Source: Planctomycetota bacterium (lineage in GTDB: Bacteria; Planctomycetota; Planctomycetia; Pirellulales; Pirellulaceae). From it: a stretch of 5,892 nt of DNA. Below the pieces are notes generated by a model that did not search any database, had not been told where the DNA came from, and saw only the letters and a program-made list of their open reading frames with translations. Both the position numbers and the translations under genes were made by a program. Shown in pieces: positions 1 through 5,892 of this stretch. The first letter of the stretch is position 1. The number at the start of each line of letters is the position of its first letter. The stretch is from positions 1 through 5,892 of the forward strand of contig JAPLNJ010001081.1 in NCBI GenBank assembly GCA_026692885.1, in the 5' to 3' direction.

Positions 1-354
1 CAGATGCGGCTGTCGGGCTTCAGCCTGGACCGGCTTTGCCAAGTCGGCTGCAAGGTCCGGGACATTTTCCAGCAGCACGCCAAGGCTCCGGAGCGGATCG
101 CTGCGGCCTGCGATAGTGGCTACGTCCGGGAACTTGCCGAAGCCGTCACCGGCAAGCTCGGCGGGAAGGTCGGCGTGGCCCCGCGGATCTTCCTGAAGAA
201 GCTGGTCGCCGACATTCTGGACCGCGTGGACCAGTTCCCTGACTTCAATCCACGTCAGCACTACGCCTTGACCATTGCCGAAAACGAGCTGACGCCCGTG
301 GAGCGGCAGGCGATGGGCACCAACGACGTCGATGAAATTGAACTGGATCTCTAG
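1..354 (+). CDS. brxD: BREX ATP-binding protein BrxD (DUF2791), C-terminal part
   Basis: The frame is open from the first base to the TAG at 352-354, giving 117 residues of a gene that begins upstream; the ATG at 4 is internal and should not be taken as the start. The visible part matches my knowledge of the C-terminus of DUF2791 P-loop ATPases (BrxD). It has a helical stretch ending in VAPRIFLKKLVADILDRVDQ, then FPDFNPRQHY, then a short acidic tail ending EIELDL. The nucleotide-binding motifs lie outside the window, so ATPase activity cannot be checked here. BrxD is a cytoplasmic accessory ATPase of BREX phage defence, encoded next to the helicase gene brxHI in BREX types 2 and 6. The gene that follows is exactly such a helicase, which strengthens the call. 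The BREX subtype cannot be decided from this end alone. Confidence 0.75.
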   Translation, partial: QMRLSGFSLDRLCQVGCKVRDIFQQHAKAPERIAAACDSGYVRELAEAVTGKLGGKVGVAPRIFLKKLVADILDRVDQFPDFNPRQHYALTIAENELTPVERQAMGTNDVDEIELDL

Positions 355-438: not shown

Positions 439-2631
439 GTGACCGCCTTCGATCAGCTTCATCCCGCAGTGCAGCACCATGTCGTCAACAGCTTGGGCTG
501 GCGCGAACTGCGGCCGTTCCAGGACGCAGTGATCCCTCCAATCCTGGCCGGCAAGCACATGATCGTGTTGGCGCCCACGGCTGGCGGGAAGACCGAGGCG
601 GCTTTTCTGCCGCTGGCCTCCCGCATGCTTTCCGAGGGCTGGACGGGGCTCAGCGTCCTGTACATCTGCCCGATCAAAGCCTTGCTCAACAATCTCGACG
701 TGCGGCTTCAGCGGTACATCACGCTGCTCGGCAGGCAATCGGCGCTCTGGCACGGAGACGTGACCACGACCGCTCGGCGTCATGTCCTCCGCGATCCTCC
801 GGATCTCCTATTGACGACGCCCGAGTCGCTGGAGTTGATGCTGGTTTCACCGAACGTCGATGCCCGCAGTCTGTTCGCCGATCTCCGGGCCGTCGCCGTC
901 GATGAAATCCACGCCTTTGCCGGCGACGATCGGGGCTGGCATCTCTTGTCTGTGCTGGAACGCATCACGCGGCTGGCGGGCCGGGAGTTGCAGCGTGTCG
1001 GGCTGTCGGCCACGGTCGGTAACCCGGAGCTGCTCATCGACTGGCTGGCGGGTCCGTGCGCCGGCGAGCGAGTTGTGTACCGGCCGGACGACTCCCAAGT
1101 AGGATGGACTTCCAAGTCCGTCCTGGATCGCGAATCAAAGAATGTGGACGGACCTGGAGGTCCATCCTACGGAGGCGAGGCCGAGGTCAAGCTGGACTAC
1201 GTCGGTTCGCTGAACAACGCGGCGATCGTGATCTCTCGCCTGCACCGCGGCGAGAAGCGGCTGGTATTCGTTGATAGCCGCGCTCGGGCGGAGGAACTGG
1301 GTGCCGAGCTTCGGCAACTGAATGTCACGGCGTTTGTCACGCACAGCTCCCTGAGTCAGGAACAGCGGCGGCAGGCCGAAGATGCCTTTGCCAACCGAGA
1401 CGACTGCGTGATCGTGGCCACCAGCGTCCTGGAGCTGGGCATCGACGTGGGCAACCTGGACCGCGTCATTCAAATCGACAGCCCCACCACGGTGTCCAGC
1501 TTCCTTCAGCGGATGGGCCGCACTGGCCGGCGGGCCGGCGTGCTCCGCAACTGCCTGTTCCTGGCCACGCGGGACGAGTCGCTCGTGCAAGCCGCCGGCC
1601 TGATCGACCTGTGGGCCGAAGGCTATGTCGAGCCGATCATACCGCCGCCAGAGCCGTATCACGTCTTGGCGCAGCAGTTGATGGCTCTTGTGCTCCAGGA
1701 GCGAGGGATCGGCCGGCACACCTGGCGGGAATGGGTCCGCCGGGTGCCGGCGTTCAGTCAGATACCTGCGGAACGCATCCAGGAAATCGTCGCCTGGATG
1801 CTCCAGCAGGGCATCCTCTGGGAGGAAGAGGGCATCCTGGGGATCGGACGCAAAGGCGAAGAGGAATACGGACGCCGGCATTTCTGTGAGCTGTTGTCGG
1901 TATTCCTCTCCCCGCCGCTCTTCGCCGTCTTGCACGGTCGCCAGGAAGTCGGCTTCGTCGATGAGCTGACTTTCGTCGGCAAGCAGGAGGGCAGCCGCGT
2001 GCTGTTGCTCGGCGGCCGGGCATGGCGGGTGACGCACATCGACTGGCAACGCAAGGTCGCCCACGTGGAGATGTCCGAAGCTCCCGGCCGGAGCCGCTGG
2101 AAGGGCGCCGGCCAGGGCCTGTCCTACAGGCTCTGCCAGGCGATCAAGCGGGTCCTTGCGACCGATGATTCGCGGCCCTGCTGGTCCCAGCGAGCCCGCA
2201 CTCAGATTGACACGATCCGTGGGGAGTTCCCGTGGTTGACCGTCGATGCCTCGGCGGTCGTCACCGGGCCGGACGGCGACACAAAGTGGTGGACCTTCGC
2301 CGGCCAGAAGGCAAACGCGGCGTTGGCCCCAGCGTTGGCCAACATGACCCAGATTCCGACGACAAGCGACAGCTTGTCCATCGACTTTGACCGCCCGCTA
2401 CCACCTGAAGCCGTCCAGCGAGCGATCGAGGACCTGCGGTCCCGTGAGCCAAGCTCCATGCTACCCGATGTGACGCCGGACGCCCTGGAGGGCCTGAAGT
2501 TCTCCGAGTGCCTGCCGCCAGCCATCGCCCTACACTCGCTGGCGACGCGCCGGCGTGACCAAGCTGGTGTGGCGCAGCTCTTGGAAATGACAATCCGGTT
2601 CGTATCGGTCCAAGGGGCTAATCCAAACTGA
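439..2631 (+). CDS. brxHI: Lhr-like SF2 DEAD/DEAH helicase, BREX protein BrxHI
   Basis: This 730-residue protein carries the full superfamily 2 helicase motif set. Visible are a Q-like RPFQ (25-28), Walker A APTAGGKTE (45-53), motif Ia PIKALLNNL (78-86), TTPESLELML (126-135), Walker B DEIH (155-158), SAT (190-192), motif IV LVFVDSR (275-281), motif V TSVLELGIDVGNL (328-340) and motif VI QRMGRTGRRAG (357-367). About 360 further residues follow, consistent with the winged-helix and C-terminal parts of Lhr-type helicases. It should be an ATP-driven nucleic-acid translocase in the cytoplasm; its precise role in BREX is not settled. The GTG start is chosen because the in-frame stop at 418-420 leaves no other start upstream and FDQLHPAVQHH right after it fits the family N-terminus. 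No clear ribosome binding site precedes it. Residues 221-244 are encoded by a palindromic repeat lying between the two RecA domains. An orphan Lhr-like helicase is the alternative, but the upstream brxD end favours BrxHI. Confidence 0.85.
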   Translation: MTAFDQLHPAVQHHVVNSLGWRELRPFQDAVIPPILAGKHMIVLAPTAGGKTEAAFLPLASRMLSEGWTGLSVLYICPIKALLNNLDVRLQRYITLLGRQSALWHGDVTTTARRHVLRDPPDLLLTTPESLELMLVSPNVDARSLFADLRAVAVDEIHAFAGDDRGWHLLSVLERITRLAGRELQRVGLSATVGNPELLIDWLAGPCAGERVVYRPDDSQVGWTSKSVLDRESKNVDGPGGPSYGGEAEVKLDYVGSLNNAAIVISRLHRGEKRLVFVDSRARAEELGAELRQLNVTAFVTHSSLSQEQRRQAEDAFANRDDCVIVATSVLELGIDVGNLDRVIQIDSPTTVSSFLQRMGRTGRRAGVLRNCLFLATRDESLVQAAGLIDLWAEGYVEPIIPPPEPYHVLAQQLMALVLQERGIGRHTWREWVRRVPAFSQIPAERIQEIVAWMLQQGILWEEEGILGIGRKGEEEYGRRHFCELLSVFLSPPLFAVLHGRQEVGFVDELTFVGKQEGSRVLLLGGRAWRVTHIDWQRKVAHVEMSEAPGRSRWKGAGQGLSYRLCQAIKRVLATDDSRPCWSQRARTQIDTIRGEFPWLTVDASAVVTGPDGDTKWWTFAGQKANAALAPALANMTQIPTTSDSLSIDFDRPLPPEAVQRAIEDLRSREPSSMLPDVTPDALEGLKFSECLPPAIALHSLATRRRDQAGVAQLLEMTIRFVSVQGANPN
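1099..1170. repeat. 72-bp imperfect palindrome (REP/MITE-like) inserted in frame within brxHI
   Basis: Two 25-base arms, 1099-1123 (beginning GTAGGATGGACTTCC) and 1146-1170 (ending GGTCCATCCTAC), are reverse complements at 23 of 25 positions. They flank a 22-base central segment at 1124-1145. The whole unit is 72 bases, exactly 24 codons, begins on a codon boundary and contains no in-frame stop. It therefore adds residues 221-244 (from VGWTSKSV to GGPSY) without breaking the helicase frame. No target-site duplication is evident at its edges. The bias towards G, P, S and W and its place in the linker between RecA domains suggest a tolerated insertion in a surface loop. The arms resemble palindromes I recall as dispersed repeats in planctomycete-type genomes; this needs a genome search. 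No second copy is seen in the window. Confidence 0.85.
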
Positions 2632-2680: not shown

Positions 2681-5600
2681 ATGAGCACGAATCGAGACAC
2701 ATTGGGCCGGATTCTTCGATTTGGCGAAATCGCACTAGAGTGTTCGCCGTTCCTCGACCAGGCCCCCGATCCGCTACCGGCCACGTTCAGCTTCGACAAG
2801 ATCGACGGCATGATGCTGGGGTTGGCGATTGGGGATGCGTTGGGCGTCACCACGGAGTCCTGGCTGCCGTCCAGGCGGCAGGCTACCTACGGTGAGATCC
2901 GCGACTACATCCCCAACAAGTACATCGACGAGCCTATTGGCTTTCCTTCCGACGACAGCCAGTTGGCCTTCTGGACCCTGGAGCAAATGCTTGCGGACGG
3001 CGGCTTCCGACCCGATAACGTGGCGGATTGCTTCTGCACGCGACATATCTTTGGCGTGGGATCGGCTGTTCGCGAGTTTCTTCGGAACCGGAAGGCAGGC
3101 AGGCCGTGGCAGCAGTGCGGTGCCAAGTCGGCGGGGAACGGCGCGTTGATGAGGATTGCCCCGATCCTCATCCCGCACCTGAAGGCCCCAACGTCGGCAC
3201 TGTGGGCCGACGCCGCCTTGGCAGCGATGATCACGCACAACGACGCCGGCTCGACGGCCGCCTGCGTGGCCTTCGTGGCCATGCTCTGGCAACTTCTCGC
3301 CATGGACGAGGCCCCCGCCGACCCGTACTGGTGGCCAAGGACATTTGTCTCCATCGCCAACGACTTGGAGGGCGACACCAAGTACAGCCCACGGGGCGGT
3401 GAGTACATGGACTATGAAGGCCCGATCTGGCGATTTGTCTCAGAAAAGCTGCTGAACACCCACTGGCGAGAATGGCCTTCCGTGCTCGACCTGTGCAACA
3501 GTTGGTACTCCGGAGCGTACCTGCTGGAAACGGTGCCCAGCGCGTTGTACATCTTGATGCGGCATGCCCATGATCCTGAAGAAGCGATCATCCGCGCGGT
3601 CAACGACACGAAGGACAACGATACCATCGCTGCCATTGTCGGGGCCGCCGTGGGCGCGCTGCACGGAAAGAAGAAACTTCCCAAGCGTTGGATCGACAAG
3701 CTCTCGGGTCGGACGACGGATTCCGATGATGGCCGCATCTTTGAGCTGCTGGCGTCGGGACGACGGAAATGGTGCCCCAGACGCACAACCAGGCCCGAGC
3801 CAGAAGCCCGTCGCTACCAATCCGCGTTGGATGCTGCCGTGGACGCCGCACAGGAGGCGGGAAAGCTGATCCGTGACGATTTTCACCGCCCTGGCGGGCC
3901 TCGCGGCAGCGGCAGCCACGCGGAGGTGGACAAAGAGGCAGAGCAGGTCATCCGCGAGAAAATCCTGGCCGCCTTCCCTGCCGCCTATCGCGGGGAGGAA
4001 ACCGGCACGGCCAGCGGTGGCGACGGCGAGCACACGTGGCTGGTCGATCCCAACGACGGCACGTCCGCCTATCTGAAGGGTTGGAGGGGCAGCGCAGTCA
4101 GCATCGCGCTGGTTCGGCAGGGCGTCCTGGTGCTGGGCGTCGTCTACGCCCCCACCTACCCCGACGACAATGGCGACCTGTTCGCCTGGGCCGAAGGCTG
4201 CGGTCCCGTCACCCGCAACGGGAAGCCGCTGACGACGAACTTGGCCGACAAGGATCTGAACGGCAGCGATGACGTGCCGGCGATCATCTACATTTCCCAG
4301 GATGCGGATAAGAACCCCGCGGGCAACGCGGCCTGCGTAACACCGGCACGTTTCATCGCCATGCCCAGCATCGCTTACCGCTTGGCGCTAGTCGCAGCGG
4401 GCGAAGGCGTGGCGGCCATCTCCCTGCATGGCCCGAAAGATTGGGATTATGCCGGTGGCCATGCTCTGCTCATCGGCGTCGGCGGGACGCTGATTGACCA
4501 GGCCGGAAAACCCATCACCTACGGTGCTCACGGCGAAAGTCACTGTCGATGGTGTTTCGGCGGCGCACCCGCAGCGGCCGATGCCCTGTATCAGCGGGAC
4601 TGGCACAGTGTCTTCAGCTCAGGCGCGAAGTCCGCCGGGGCATTTGCCCTGGTTCGGCCCGAACGTGGCGCCGCCGTGCCTGATCCCCGGCCACTTTCCC
4701 GTGCTCAAGGCTGCCTACTCGGCCAGTTGGCCGGCGATTCGCTGGGCGGGCTGGTGGAGTTCCGCTCGGCGGCCAGCATCAAGTCAAAATATCCCGCCGG
4801 CCTGCGGGAACTGATGGACGGCGGGCACTGGGGAATCCTGGCCGGCCAGCCAACCGACGATTCGGAAATGGCGCTGATGTTGGCCCGCTCCATCGTCCAA
4901 GCGAAAGGCCACCAGCCGACCACAGCTCTCGATGCCTACGTTCACTGGTACAACTCCCCGCCGTTTGACATTGGCGGCACGACTTCCTCGGCGCTGCGTG
5001 GTGCCAAACACGGCCAGACACCGCAGGATCGCCTCGCGGGGGCCAAGCAGCACGCCAACACGACCAGCCAGGCGAATGGTTCGCTGATGCGAATCAGCCC
5101 CTTGGCCATCTTTGGCGCGGGGAATCCTGCCGCAGCAGCAGAGTGGGCGCGGGCCGACAGCGGTCTGACGCACCCGCATCAGGTGTGCCAGGATGCTTGT
5201 GCCGTCTTCGTGACCGCGATTGCCACGGCGATCGCCAATGGGACCTCGTCGCAGGACTGTTACCAAGCCGCCCTGGACGAAGCGAGGCGGTCCTCAGCGG
5301 CCGCGCCAGTGGTTGAGGCACTTCACGAGGCGGCCGAGCGACCACCCCAAGACTATCAGACGCACCAAGGCTGGGTGCTCATCGCCTTGCAAAATGCCTT
5401 CTACCAGCTCTTGCACGCACCGAGCCTGGAAGACGGCGTCGTGCAGACCGTGATGGCCGGCGGCGACACCGACACCAACGCCGCCATCGCCGGTGCCCTC
5501 CTGGGCGCAGTCCACGGGCGTGACGCCATCCCGCCGCAGTGGGTCCGCAGCATTCTATCCTGCCGCCCGCTGCCCAAGTCCGGCACATCGCATCCCCGCC

Positions 5601-5701
5601 CCATCGAGTTCTGGCCGGTGGATGCCCTGCGACTGGCCGAGAAGCTACTGGTATTGGGACTACAGGCACACGACGCCAAGGGAGTGAACAGCGGTCCGTG
5701 A
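2681..5701 (+). CDS. Three-domain fusion: ADP-ribosylglycohydrolase / inositol-monophosphatase-family phosphatase / ADP-ribosylglycohydrolase
   Basis: The 1006-residue product has no signal peptide or membrane segment and should be cytoplasmic. Domain 1 (about 40-345) is DraG/ARH-like: GLAIGDALGVTTE (47-59), PSDDSQ (89-94), GNGALMRIAP (152-161), THND (185-188) and DNDT (312-315). Domain 2 (about 376-640) has the motifs of the Mg-dependent, lithium-sensitive phosphatase superfamily: D417, GEE (438-440), DPNDGT (456-461) and WDYAGG (588-593). Domain 3 (about 673-990) is a second, more canonical DraG: GQLAGDSLGGLVEF (681-694), PTDDSE (724-729), NGSLMRISP (799-807), THPH (830-833) and GGDTDT (927-932). 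DraG enzymes use two Mg ions to cleave ADP-ribose from an acceptor; the phosphatase family acts on inositol phosphates, PAP or similar small molecules. All predicted metal ligands are present, so all three domains look active. The true substrate is unknown; processing of ADP-ribosylated or phospho-ADP-ribose compounds is inference. The ATG is supported by a ribosome binding site. The gene follows brxHI by 49 bases and may belong to the same transcript. Confidence 0.88.
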   Translation: MSTNRDTLGRILRFGEIALECSPFLDQAPDPLPATFSFDKIDGMMLGLAIGDALGVTTESWLPSRRQATYGEIRDYIPNKYIDEPIGFPSDDSQLAFWTLEQMLADGGFRPDNVADCFCTRHIFGVGSAVREFLRNRKAGRPWQQCGAKSAGNGALMRIAPILIPHLKAPTSALWADAALAAMITHNDAGSTAACVAFVAMLWQLLAMDEAPADPYWWPRTFVSIANDLEGDTKYSPRGGEYMDYEGPIWRFVSEKLLNTHWREWPSVLDLCNSWYSGAYLLETVPSALYILMRHAHDPEEAIIRAVNDTKDNDTIAAIVGAAVGALHGKKKLPKRWIDKLSGRTTDSDDGRIFELLASGRRKWCPRRTTRPEPEARRYQSALDAAVDAAQEAGKLIRDDFHRPGGPRGSGSHAEVDKEAEQVIREKILAAFPAAYRGEETGTASGGDGEHTWLVDPNDGTSAYLKGWRGSAVSIALVRQGVLVLGVVYAPTYPDDNGDLFAWAEGCGPVTRNGKPLTTNLADKDLNGSDDVPAIIYISQDADKNPAGNAACVTPARFIAMPSIAYRLALVAAGEGVAAISLHGPKDWDYAGGHALLIGVGGTLIDQAGKPITYGAHGESHCRWCFGGAPAAADALYQRDWHSVFSSGAKSAGAFALVRPERGAAVPDPRPLSRAQGCLLGQLAGDSLGGLVEFRSAASIKSKYPAGLRELMDGGHWGILAGQPTDDSEMALMLARSIVQAKGHQPTTALDAYVHWYNSPPFDIGGTTSSALRGAKHGQTPQDRLAGAKQHANTTSQANGSLMRISPLAIFGAGNPAAAAEWARADSGLTHPHQVCQDACAVFVTAIATAIANGTSSQDCYQAALDEARRSSAAAPVVEALHEAAERPPQDYQTHQGWVLIALQNAFYQLLHAPSLEDGVVQTVMAGGDTDTNAAIAGALLGAVHGRDAIPPQWVRSILSCRPLPKSGTSHPRPIEFWPVDALRLAEKLLVLGLQAHDAKGVNSGP

Positions 5702-5874: not shown

Positions 5875-5892
5875 ATGAACGCGAAACGAGTG
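5875..5892 (+). CDS. Start of an unidentified gene, cut by the window end
   Basis: Only six codons are visible (MNAKRV), so no product can be named. The start is supported by the well-placed GGGGAG upstream and by following a same-strand gene cluster after only a short gap. It is probably the next gene of the same transcription unit. Confidence 0.5.

Follow-up and report, generated by a model that had tools for sequence, protein, structure and literature searches.

The window considered here, a stretch of 5,892 nucleotides (nt) from a member of the Pirellulaceae, phylum Planctomycetota (assembly GCA_026692885.1, contig JAPLNJ010001081.1), encodes at positions 2681-5701 of the forward strand a polypeptide of 1006 amino acids (aa), in which two ADP-ribosylglycohydrolase (ARG) domains enclose one domain of the inositol-monophosphatase (IMPase) family; the three are denoted N, I and C in their order along the chain. 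With a likelihood placed just short of even, the protein is read as a multi-step enzyme for the processing of ADP-ribose adducts, here possibly a repair or clean-up accessory of a defence locus. The three folds, the conserved metal ligands, the purifying selection, the repeated joining of an N-type ARG to both a phosphatase and another ARG, and the location of the gene were all computed; catalysis, the substrate, the order of steps, cotranscription and an anti-phage role are inferred.

Domain architecture of the triple fusion

The features of the fusion are as follows, with the basis of each in brackets.

2681..5701, + strand: triple fusion ARG(N)-IMPase-ARG(C), 1006 aa (open reading frame, Pfam, structure models)
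2798..3715, + strand: N-type ADP-ribosylglycohydrolase domain, residues 40-345 (Pfam, fold, N clade in tree)
2948..2956, + strand: N metal-site motif S90-D91-D92 (conservation 0.93/0.96/0.99 of 120)
3053..3055, + strand: Gly125 of N, aligned with DraG Asp97, which is lost (Gly 0.97 of 120)
3614..3625, + strand: N metal-site motif D312-N-D314-T315 (alignment, motif scan)
3821..4534, + strand: inositol-monophosphatase-family domain, residues 381-618 by Pfam (fold match about 376-646)
3992..4006, + strand: IMPase motif G438-EET-G442 (alignment, motif scan)
4046..4063, + strand: IMPase metal motif D456-P-N-D459-G-T461 (alignment, motif scan)
4442..4447, + strand: IMPase metal motif W588-D589 (alignment, motif scan)
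4694..5554, + strand: C-type ADP-ribosylglycohydrolase domain, residues 672-958 (Pfam, fold)
4853..4861, + strand: C metal-site motif T725-D726-D727 (alignment, motif scan)
4967..4969, + strand: Asp763 of C, aligned with DraG Asp97 and its D97N variant, kept (Asp 0.99 of 130)
5459..5476, + strand: C metal-site motif GGD929-T-D931-T932 (alignment, motif scan)

The presence of three folds in one chain, as proposed in the initial annotation, was confirmed by structure prediction and hidden Markov model searches, with Pfam, AlphaFold models and PDB matches in agreement. PF03747 (ADP-ribosylglycohydrolase) scored 418 bits against a cut-off of 26.2 over two stretches, and PF00459 (inositol monophosphatase family) scored 111.6 against 27, the metal motifs and fold of the IMPase domain concurring. 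The structure models were built from alignment A6, alignment A5 having been set aside as it aligned N-only proteins to the C domain; N, being barely covered in the fold list of the whole model, was modelled alone. As computed from one orthologue pair (dN/dS 0.12-0.13 in each domain), all three domains are under purifying selection.

By alignment, the predicted dinuclear-metal ligands are present in both N (S90/D91/D92 with D312/D314/T315) and C (T725/D726/D727 with D929/D931/T932), and across the 120 N-type and 130 C-type domains aligned the metal ligands are kept in 88-100% of rows. The position of DraG Asp97, which we take to be a catalytic residue, is occupied by Asp in 99% of C-type domains and by Gly in 97% of N-type domains (Gly in 42/42 rows of the N alignment A7). 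N and C share 25% identity and, with a third ARG type denoted C', form separate groups in the ARG tree (SH-aLRT 100 for N, 69 for C and 94 for C'), where long branches meet and the deep order is unsure. The earlier claim that both ARG domains have intact metal motifs is upheld, but the two are not copies of a single activity. N forms a clade of its own and its site is altered, so it probably acts on a different linkage or substrate from C.

Both ARG domains share the fold and metal motifs of DraG (R. rubrum / A. brasilense), Tri1 and ARH3, and C keeps the Asp97 position. They nevertheless differ from these enzymes in being only about 20-28% identical to them, in the absence of the Asp97 residue from N and in the attached phosphatase, and the fusion falls under the NCBIfam equivalog cut-offs for both DraG (TIGR02662, dinitrogenase reductase hydrolase; 238.5, cut-off 337.05) and Tri1 (NF041672; 159.3 bits, cut-off 490). 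The Tri1 score also speaks against the proposal that the fusion is an immunity protein paired with an ADP-ribosyltransferase toxin, as are Tri1 or Lmo0067; the identified genes of the window include no toxin gene, ADP-ribosyltransferases not having been searched near relatives, and this proposal is regarded as highly improbable.

The IMPase domain has in common with SuhB/IMPase, HisN and CysQ the fold and the GEE, DPxDGT and WD motifs, which we take to be those of the IMPase family. Of the 120 homologues listed, 100 match simple patterns for all three of GEETG, DPNDGT and WD, and 16 of the remaining 20 miss just the narrow first pattern. The domain is set apart from the three enzymes by a signature peculiar to it (DPNDGTxAYLKGWRGSAVSIA), by the attached ARG, and by about equally weak scores to all three NCBIfam equivalog models, each far under its cut-off (CysQ 70.4/228.8, HisN 67.5/275.15 and IMPase 62.2/332 bits).

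Recurrent fusion of ARG domains with unrelated phosphatases

The layouts among the 120 listed homologues, the window protein included, are N-I-C (12), I-C (105), I-C-N (2) and N-C (1). A quick tree built on 64 rows of the I-C part shows N-I-C and I-C proteins intermingled, with eight changes of which at least four are forced by well-supported branches; N has therefore probably been gained or lost repeatedly. For metagenomic I-C proteins, N may be encoded separately, immediately upstream, or the gene may have been cut. A genome scan found 233 relatives, and among the best 80 loci kept, N is fused in one (L007) and is matched in part beside a C-type gene in L077. At another locus (L016, 9947-12651), IMPase-ARG precedes N-like ARG pieces that lie in two frames, which is either a broken I-C-N gene or an assembly error.

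A search with N alone among proteins of 553-1760 aa gave 197 matches, 120 of them listed. The partners of N among the matches listed comprise DSP/PTP-type phosphatases, vWA, PF20208 (presumably ARPP-1), NADAR, and PF06956 together with PF00158 (which we take to be RtcR and the sigma-54 activator, respectively), and a second ARG-like domain is found in 35 of the 105 newly listed N fusions. The vWA, ARPP (assuming this identity for PF20208) and Cys-phosphatase fusions are carried by N homologues about 49-62% identical. Two single database proteins were also observed, namely an ARG-NADAR-ARG fusion (P0129) and a chain combining an N-type ARG with PF06956 and PF00158 (P0139).

With the cysteine-based DSP/PTP phosphatase, which bears the HCx5R motif and is unrelated to IMPase, N-PTP-C' (n=3) and C'-N-PTP (n=2) fusions occur among 120 listed proteins, 92 of which are PTP-C' without N. 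The N-PTP-ARG fusions resemble the window protein in their ARG-phosphatase-ARG order and in carrying the same N-type ARG, and differ from it in the phosphatase and in the group of the third ARG. Given that the three ARG types lie in separate tree groups, the N-IMPase-C and N-PTP-C' fusions likely arose as separate events. A C- or C'-type ARG and, separately, an N-type ARG have thus come to be joined with each of two unrelated phosphatases. This repeated fusion, the strongest evidence available, supports the view that the phosphatase and ARG steps belong together on one substrate, and it strengthens the earlier suggestion that ADP-ribose release and phosphate removal are linked. Newly found here are the IMPase version with two ARGs and the recurrence of the ARG-phosphatase-ARG order with an unrelated cysteine-based phosphatase.

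The repeated one-chain assembly from unrelated phosphatases would place ADP-ribosyl hydrolysis and dephosphorylation in one reaction path, and a single purified protein with point mutants makes the substrate question directly testable. It would be explained if the substrate were a hitherto undescribed phosphorylated ADP-ribose adduct on macromolecules, placed there by phages or hosts, for which the enzyme is the dedicated remover; such adducts may include 2'-phospho-ADP-ribosyl groups from NADP or an ADP-ribosyl phosphate attached to protein or nucleic acid. This more specific proposal is considered unlikely.

Relation to predicted ARG-centric systems

Iyer et al. 2022 (PMC9503650, section 3.8) described ARG-centric bacterial systems predicted to reverse viral ADP-ribosylation, defined in part by the absence of an ADP-ribosyltransferase, in which ARG is accompanied by phosphatases (R-P, calcineurin-like, HD and HAD in the text), Nudix or WYL regulators, vWA and other chaperones, restriction endonucleases and ARPP. 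The fusion resembles these systems in that ARG domains of the N clade have vWA, ARPP-like, NADAR and Cys-phosphatase partners, which make up much of the set published, going by the partners named, in that a phosphatase lies within the same polypeptide as ARG, and in that planctomycetes are among the hosts named. It departs from them in that its phosphatase belongs to the metal-dependent IMPase family, which is not named in the text of that paper, and in that two ARGs are found in one chain. Judged by its domains, it is a putative variant of the predicted ARG-centric kind, with IMPase replacing the cysteine phosphatase and two ARGs per chain.

None of the terms “inositol”, “IMPase”, “BREX” or “McrBC” occurs in the main text of PMC9503650, of which Figure 7 and the supplements may show more. 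A literature search, with most subscription papers outside its reach, found no paper joining ADP-ribosylglycohydrolase and inositol monophosphatase; for ADP-ribosylglycohydrolase together with BREX and defence one paper was listed, for ADP-ribosylglycohydrolase in connection with phage ADP-ribosyltransferases and anti-phage activity since 2022 only PMC9503650 turned up, and no experimental test of an ARG-phosphatase system was found in literature titles and the starts of abstracts.

Defence genes in the neighbourhood of the fusion and its relatives

The fusion lies immediately downstream of two components of type 2 BREX, a system comprising PglW, PglX, PglZ, BrxC, BrxD and BrxHI.

1..354, + strand: BrxD, C-terminal part only, cut by the window start (database matches)
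439..2631, + strand: BrxHI helicase (type 2 BREX), same-strand upstream neighbour (PADLOC 3.5e-294)

The BrxD-BrxHI pair was identified by PADLOC, and the window covers no further BREX genes. As reported earlier, the start of the fusion lies 49 nt after the end of BrxHI on the same strand.

The surroundings of relatives were annotated for part of the loci, with gene calls made by a simple script that gave wrong-strand calls in some GC-rich loci; the starts and ends of genes next to I-C are approximate, the flanks having been called apart. Several relatives are placed close to restriction or other defence genes. In Siccirubricoccus and Roseococcus (L044, 4220-12061; L050, 3854-10462), vWA, I-C, a McrB-type AAA protein and McrC form one apparent operon, while in L039 (8607-17986) vWA and I-C are followed in one direction by ZacA, ZacB and ZacC, called by PADLOC as a Zac system; a vWA gene is likewise found near the relative in L063. 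An opposite-strand PDC-S02 nuclease gene comes directly after I-C in L008, and a gene for a type IIG enzyme is found more distantly; in L007, about 20 nt separate the N-I-C gene from a downstream gene that weakly matches Mrr_cat (23 bits, cut-off 21). In the same genome as this latter fusion (G002), the locus L116 (426-8386, minus strand) contains an apparent operon of overlapping genes for a helicase-kinase, a PglW-like NERD-kinase (E 6.7e-22) and a RecQ-like helicase, with a lone N-type ARG gene last.

On a Rhodobacter plasmid (L002, 7965-17321), I-C is followed by a NUDIX gene after 8 nt; here and on a Pseudomonas luteola plasmid (L004, 13262-20787), WYL-domain proteins and a TM0106-family RecB-like nuclease are encoded a few genes from IMPase-ARG. 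In L002, a gene of the SIR2 family was noted incidentally some 10 kb away from I-C. Two further arrangements were noted: a Rhodothermus plasmid (L001, 10548-13622) bears two adjoining ARG genes, one C-like and one N-type, with a WYL-domain gene on the other strand, and in L048 (10010-13439) IMPase-ARG is followed directly, on the same strand, by a gene for an RtcR-type CARF-AAA-HTH regulator.

The downstream position of the fusion after BrxD-BrxHI, together with that of the lone N gene after the NERD-kinase and helicase genes of L116, could also be expected of a regulator or off-switch, which would degrade an ADP-ribose-derived signal or strip ADP-ribose made by the host's own defence and thereby limit self-damage; the regulator domains in P0139 and the regulator gene of L048 agree with such a role. 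The identified window genes include no NAD-consuming enzyme, however, and none is named among the type 2 BREX parts in the available portion of PMC12839542, such that an off-switch is deemed quite unlikely. The same two RtcR links speak for a role in RNA repair, in which the enzyme would handle ADP-ribose phosphates formed by RNA 2'-phosphate transfer to NAD (KptA chemistry) or would take ADP-ribose off RNA. ADP-ribose-1''-phosphate is given as an RNA-repair by-product in the part of PMC9503650 available. The links amount to one fused protein and one locus, though, RtcA, RtcB and KptA not having been searched near relatives, and the window holds just two other identified genes; a role in RNA repair is accordingly rated very unlikely.

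Evidence against a defence role and the salvage alternative

A number of results weigh against the reading of the fusion as an accessory of defence. BrxHI was found at E<=1e-100 in at least 18 of 392 planctomycete genomes, with BrxD adjoining it or lying within about 2.2 kb in 18/18 fetched stretches; homologues of N, I or C (E<=1e-4) occurred at 0/18 of these loci, the stretches being 6-20 kb each and some cut by contig ends. Conversely, BrxHI or BrxD (E<=1e-10) had no match in the 97 fetched loci of relatives, among which the closest metagenomic relatives (P0002-P0010) are represented by L007 alone, a 5.5-kb contig. PglZ is present in 17 of 50 genomes of I-C loci; record coordinates were compared for three of these, the large single-contig genomes G005, G010 and G825, where it lies at least 0.4 Mb from the I-C gene and is thus not linked to it. 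The terms ADP-ribosyl, glycohydrolase, DraG, ADPr and inositol are absent from a BREX survey of 2026 (PMC12839542, main text). The fusion differs from the type 2 BREX components in that it does not recur with them, and a BREX-specific accessory as a general claim was rejected on the two counts above. The BREX neighbourhood looks to be a local arrangement, not a rule.

Ordinary settings are also common among the relatives: fucosidase and esterase genes in L110 and a sugar-isomerase-like gene in L112 (both by Pfam). Visual inspection of protein starts adds flagellar and cell-division-like genes in L140, other metabolic or transport neighbours in L191-L193, and imidazole-glycerol-phosphate-dehydratase-like, secreted/peptidase-like and peroxiredoxin-like neighbours in L190, L010 and L006, respectively. 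The PADLOC neighbour families numbered 124 in set A2, 74 in A3 and 36 in the control A4, with no clear excess; the many related models swell these counts, as do kinases and helicases, which in part occur in the control too. The sets took two genes on each side and contained 117 (A2), 115 (A3) and 118 (control A4, from 18 stretches) proteins. A Fisher p of 0.10 was obtained on a guessed 7/232 against 0/118 proteins in place of true counts, the guess taking in helicases that could be RecQ or UvrD with housekeeping functions. Seven loci (L018, L023, L025, L055, L063, L065 and L078) and one L067 protein in a bad frame fell outside the sets; nine set A proteins were left out (2 of L024, 4 of L053 and 3 of L086), L134 gave no gene, 22 of 140 control genes were left out at random, and one of the 20 control regions was nonexistent. 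Finally, no gene for a Nudix or WYL regulator or a chaperone is present in the short window with its two other identified genes.

IMPase-ARG genes sometimes have defence neighbours and often have ordinary surroundings. The outcome which the initial annotation held to be decisive against it, namely homologues mostly in non-defence contexts with no BREX association, is thus observed in part, in that ordinary surroundings and the lack of a BREX link stand alongside several defence neighbours.

The main rival explanation, doubtful as it is, takes the fusion to act generally in salvage or metabolite repair, on ADP-ribose and its phosphorylated relatives (such as 2'-phospho-ADP-ribose, ADP-ribose-1''-phosphate, AMP or ribose-5-phosphate); it would then not be dedicated to defence, and its proximity to brxHI would be accidental. 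The ordinary surroundings of several I-C and N relatives, the absence of a BREX association in either direction tested and the small-molecule phosphatases among the relatives of IMPase are all in keeping with it, whereas the several close placements with restriction genes are not. Neither is the distribution that of a core metabolic gene: at E<=1e-100, the whole protein is found in at least 6 of 241 genomes of one family, 8 of 396 of one order and 9 of 397 of one class, and N at E<=1e-30 in at least 1 of 392 planctomycete genomes. These tallies are lower bounds from overlapping genome sets, with the 2-5 best candidates per genome scored (2-3 for the family and order), and the distribution is sparse.

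Proposed mechanism

Of the accessory module once suggested beside BREX, the processing of ADP-ribose adducts stands as the best available reading and fits the published prediction, while a general accessory of BREX does not. As a processor of such adducts, the protein would employ two divergent ARG modules to hydrolyse ADP-ribosyl bonds, with C being DraG-like with a full site, and N and C would take ADP-ribose off different adducts or linkages. The IMPase-type module, presumed to be Mg-dependent, would then remove a phosphate monoester from the same substrate, from the released product or from its breakdown product, so that one chain could complete the clean-up and keep products from accumulating. 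Read-through with brxHI might ensure that the enzyme is on hand when the defence locus is expressed, and its role against invaders would consist in undoing the ADP-ribosylation brought about by an invader's ADP-ribosyltransferase. If true, this would tie BREX, McrBC and similar DNA-targeting loci to the repair of a phage-made modification.

Occurrence on mobile elements and other observations

No relative was found on viral contigs with the single protein as query, and the I-C alignment as query gave 12 loci, one with I-C (L086) and the rest with C-type ARG, whole or partial. Phage records yielded 28 matches, none covering 80%, with ARG the matched part in the 20 listed, and plasmid records yielded 255, likewise none covering 80%.

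An Rfam scan of the window gave zero matches. A new frame beginning MNAKRV opens at 5875-5892, 173 nt past the fusion and preceded by the purine-rich GAGGGGAGCG, and is cut by the window end.

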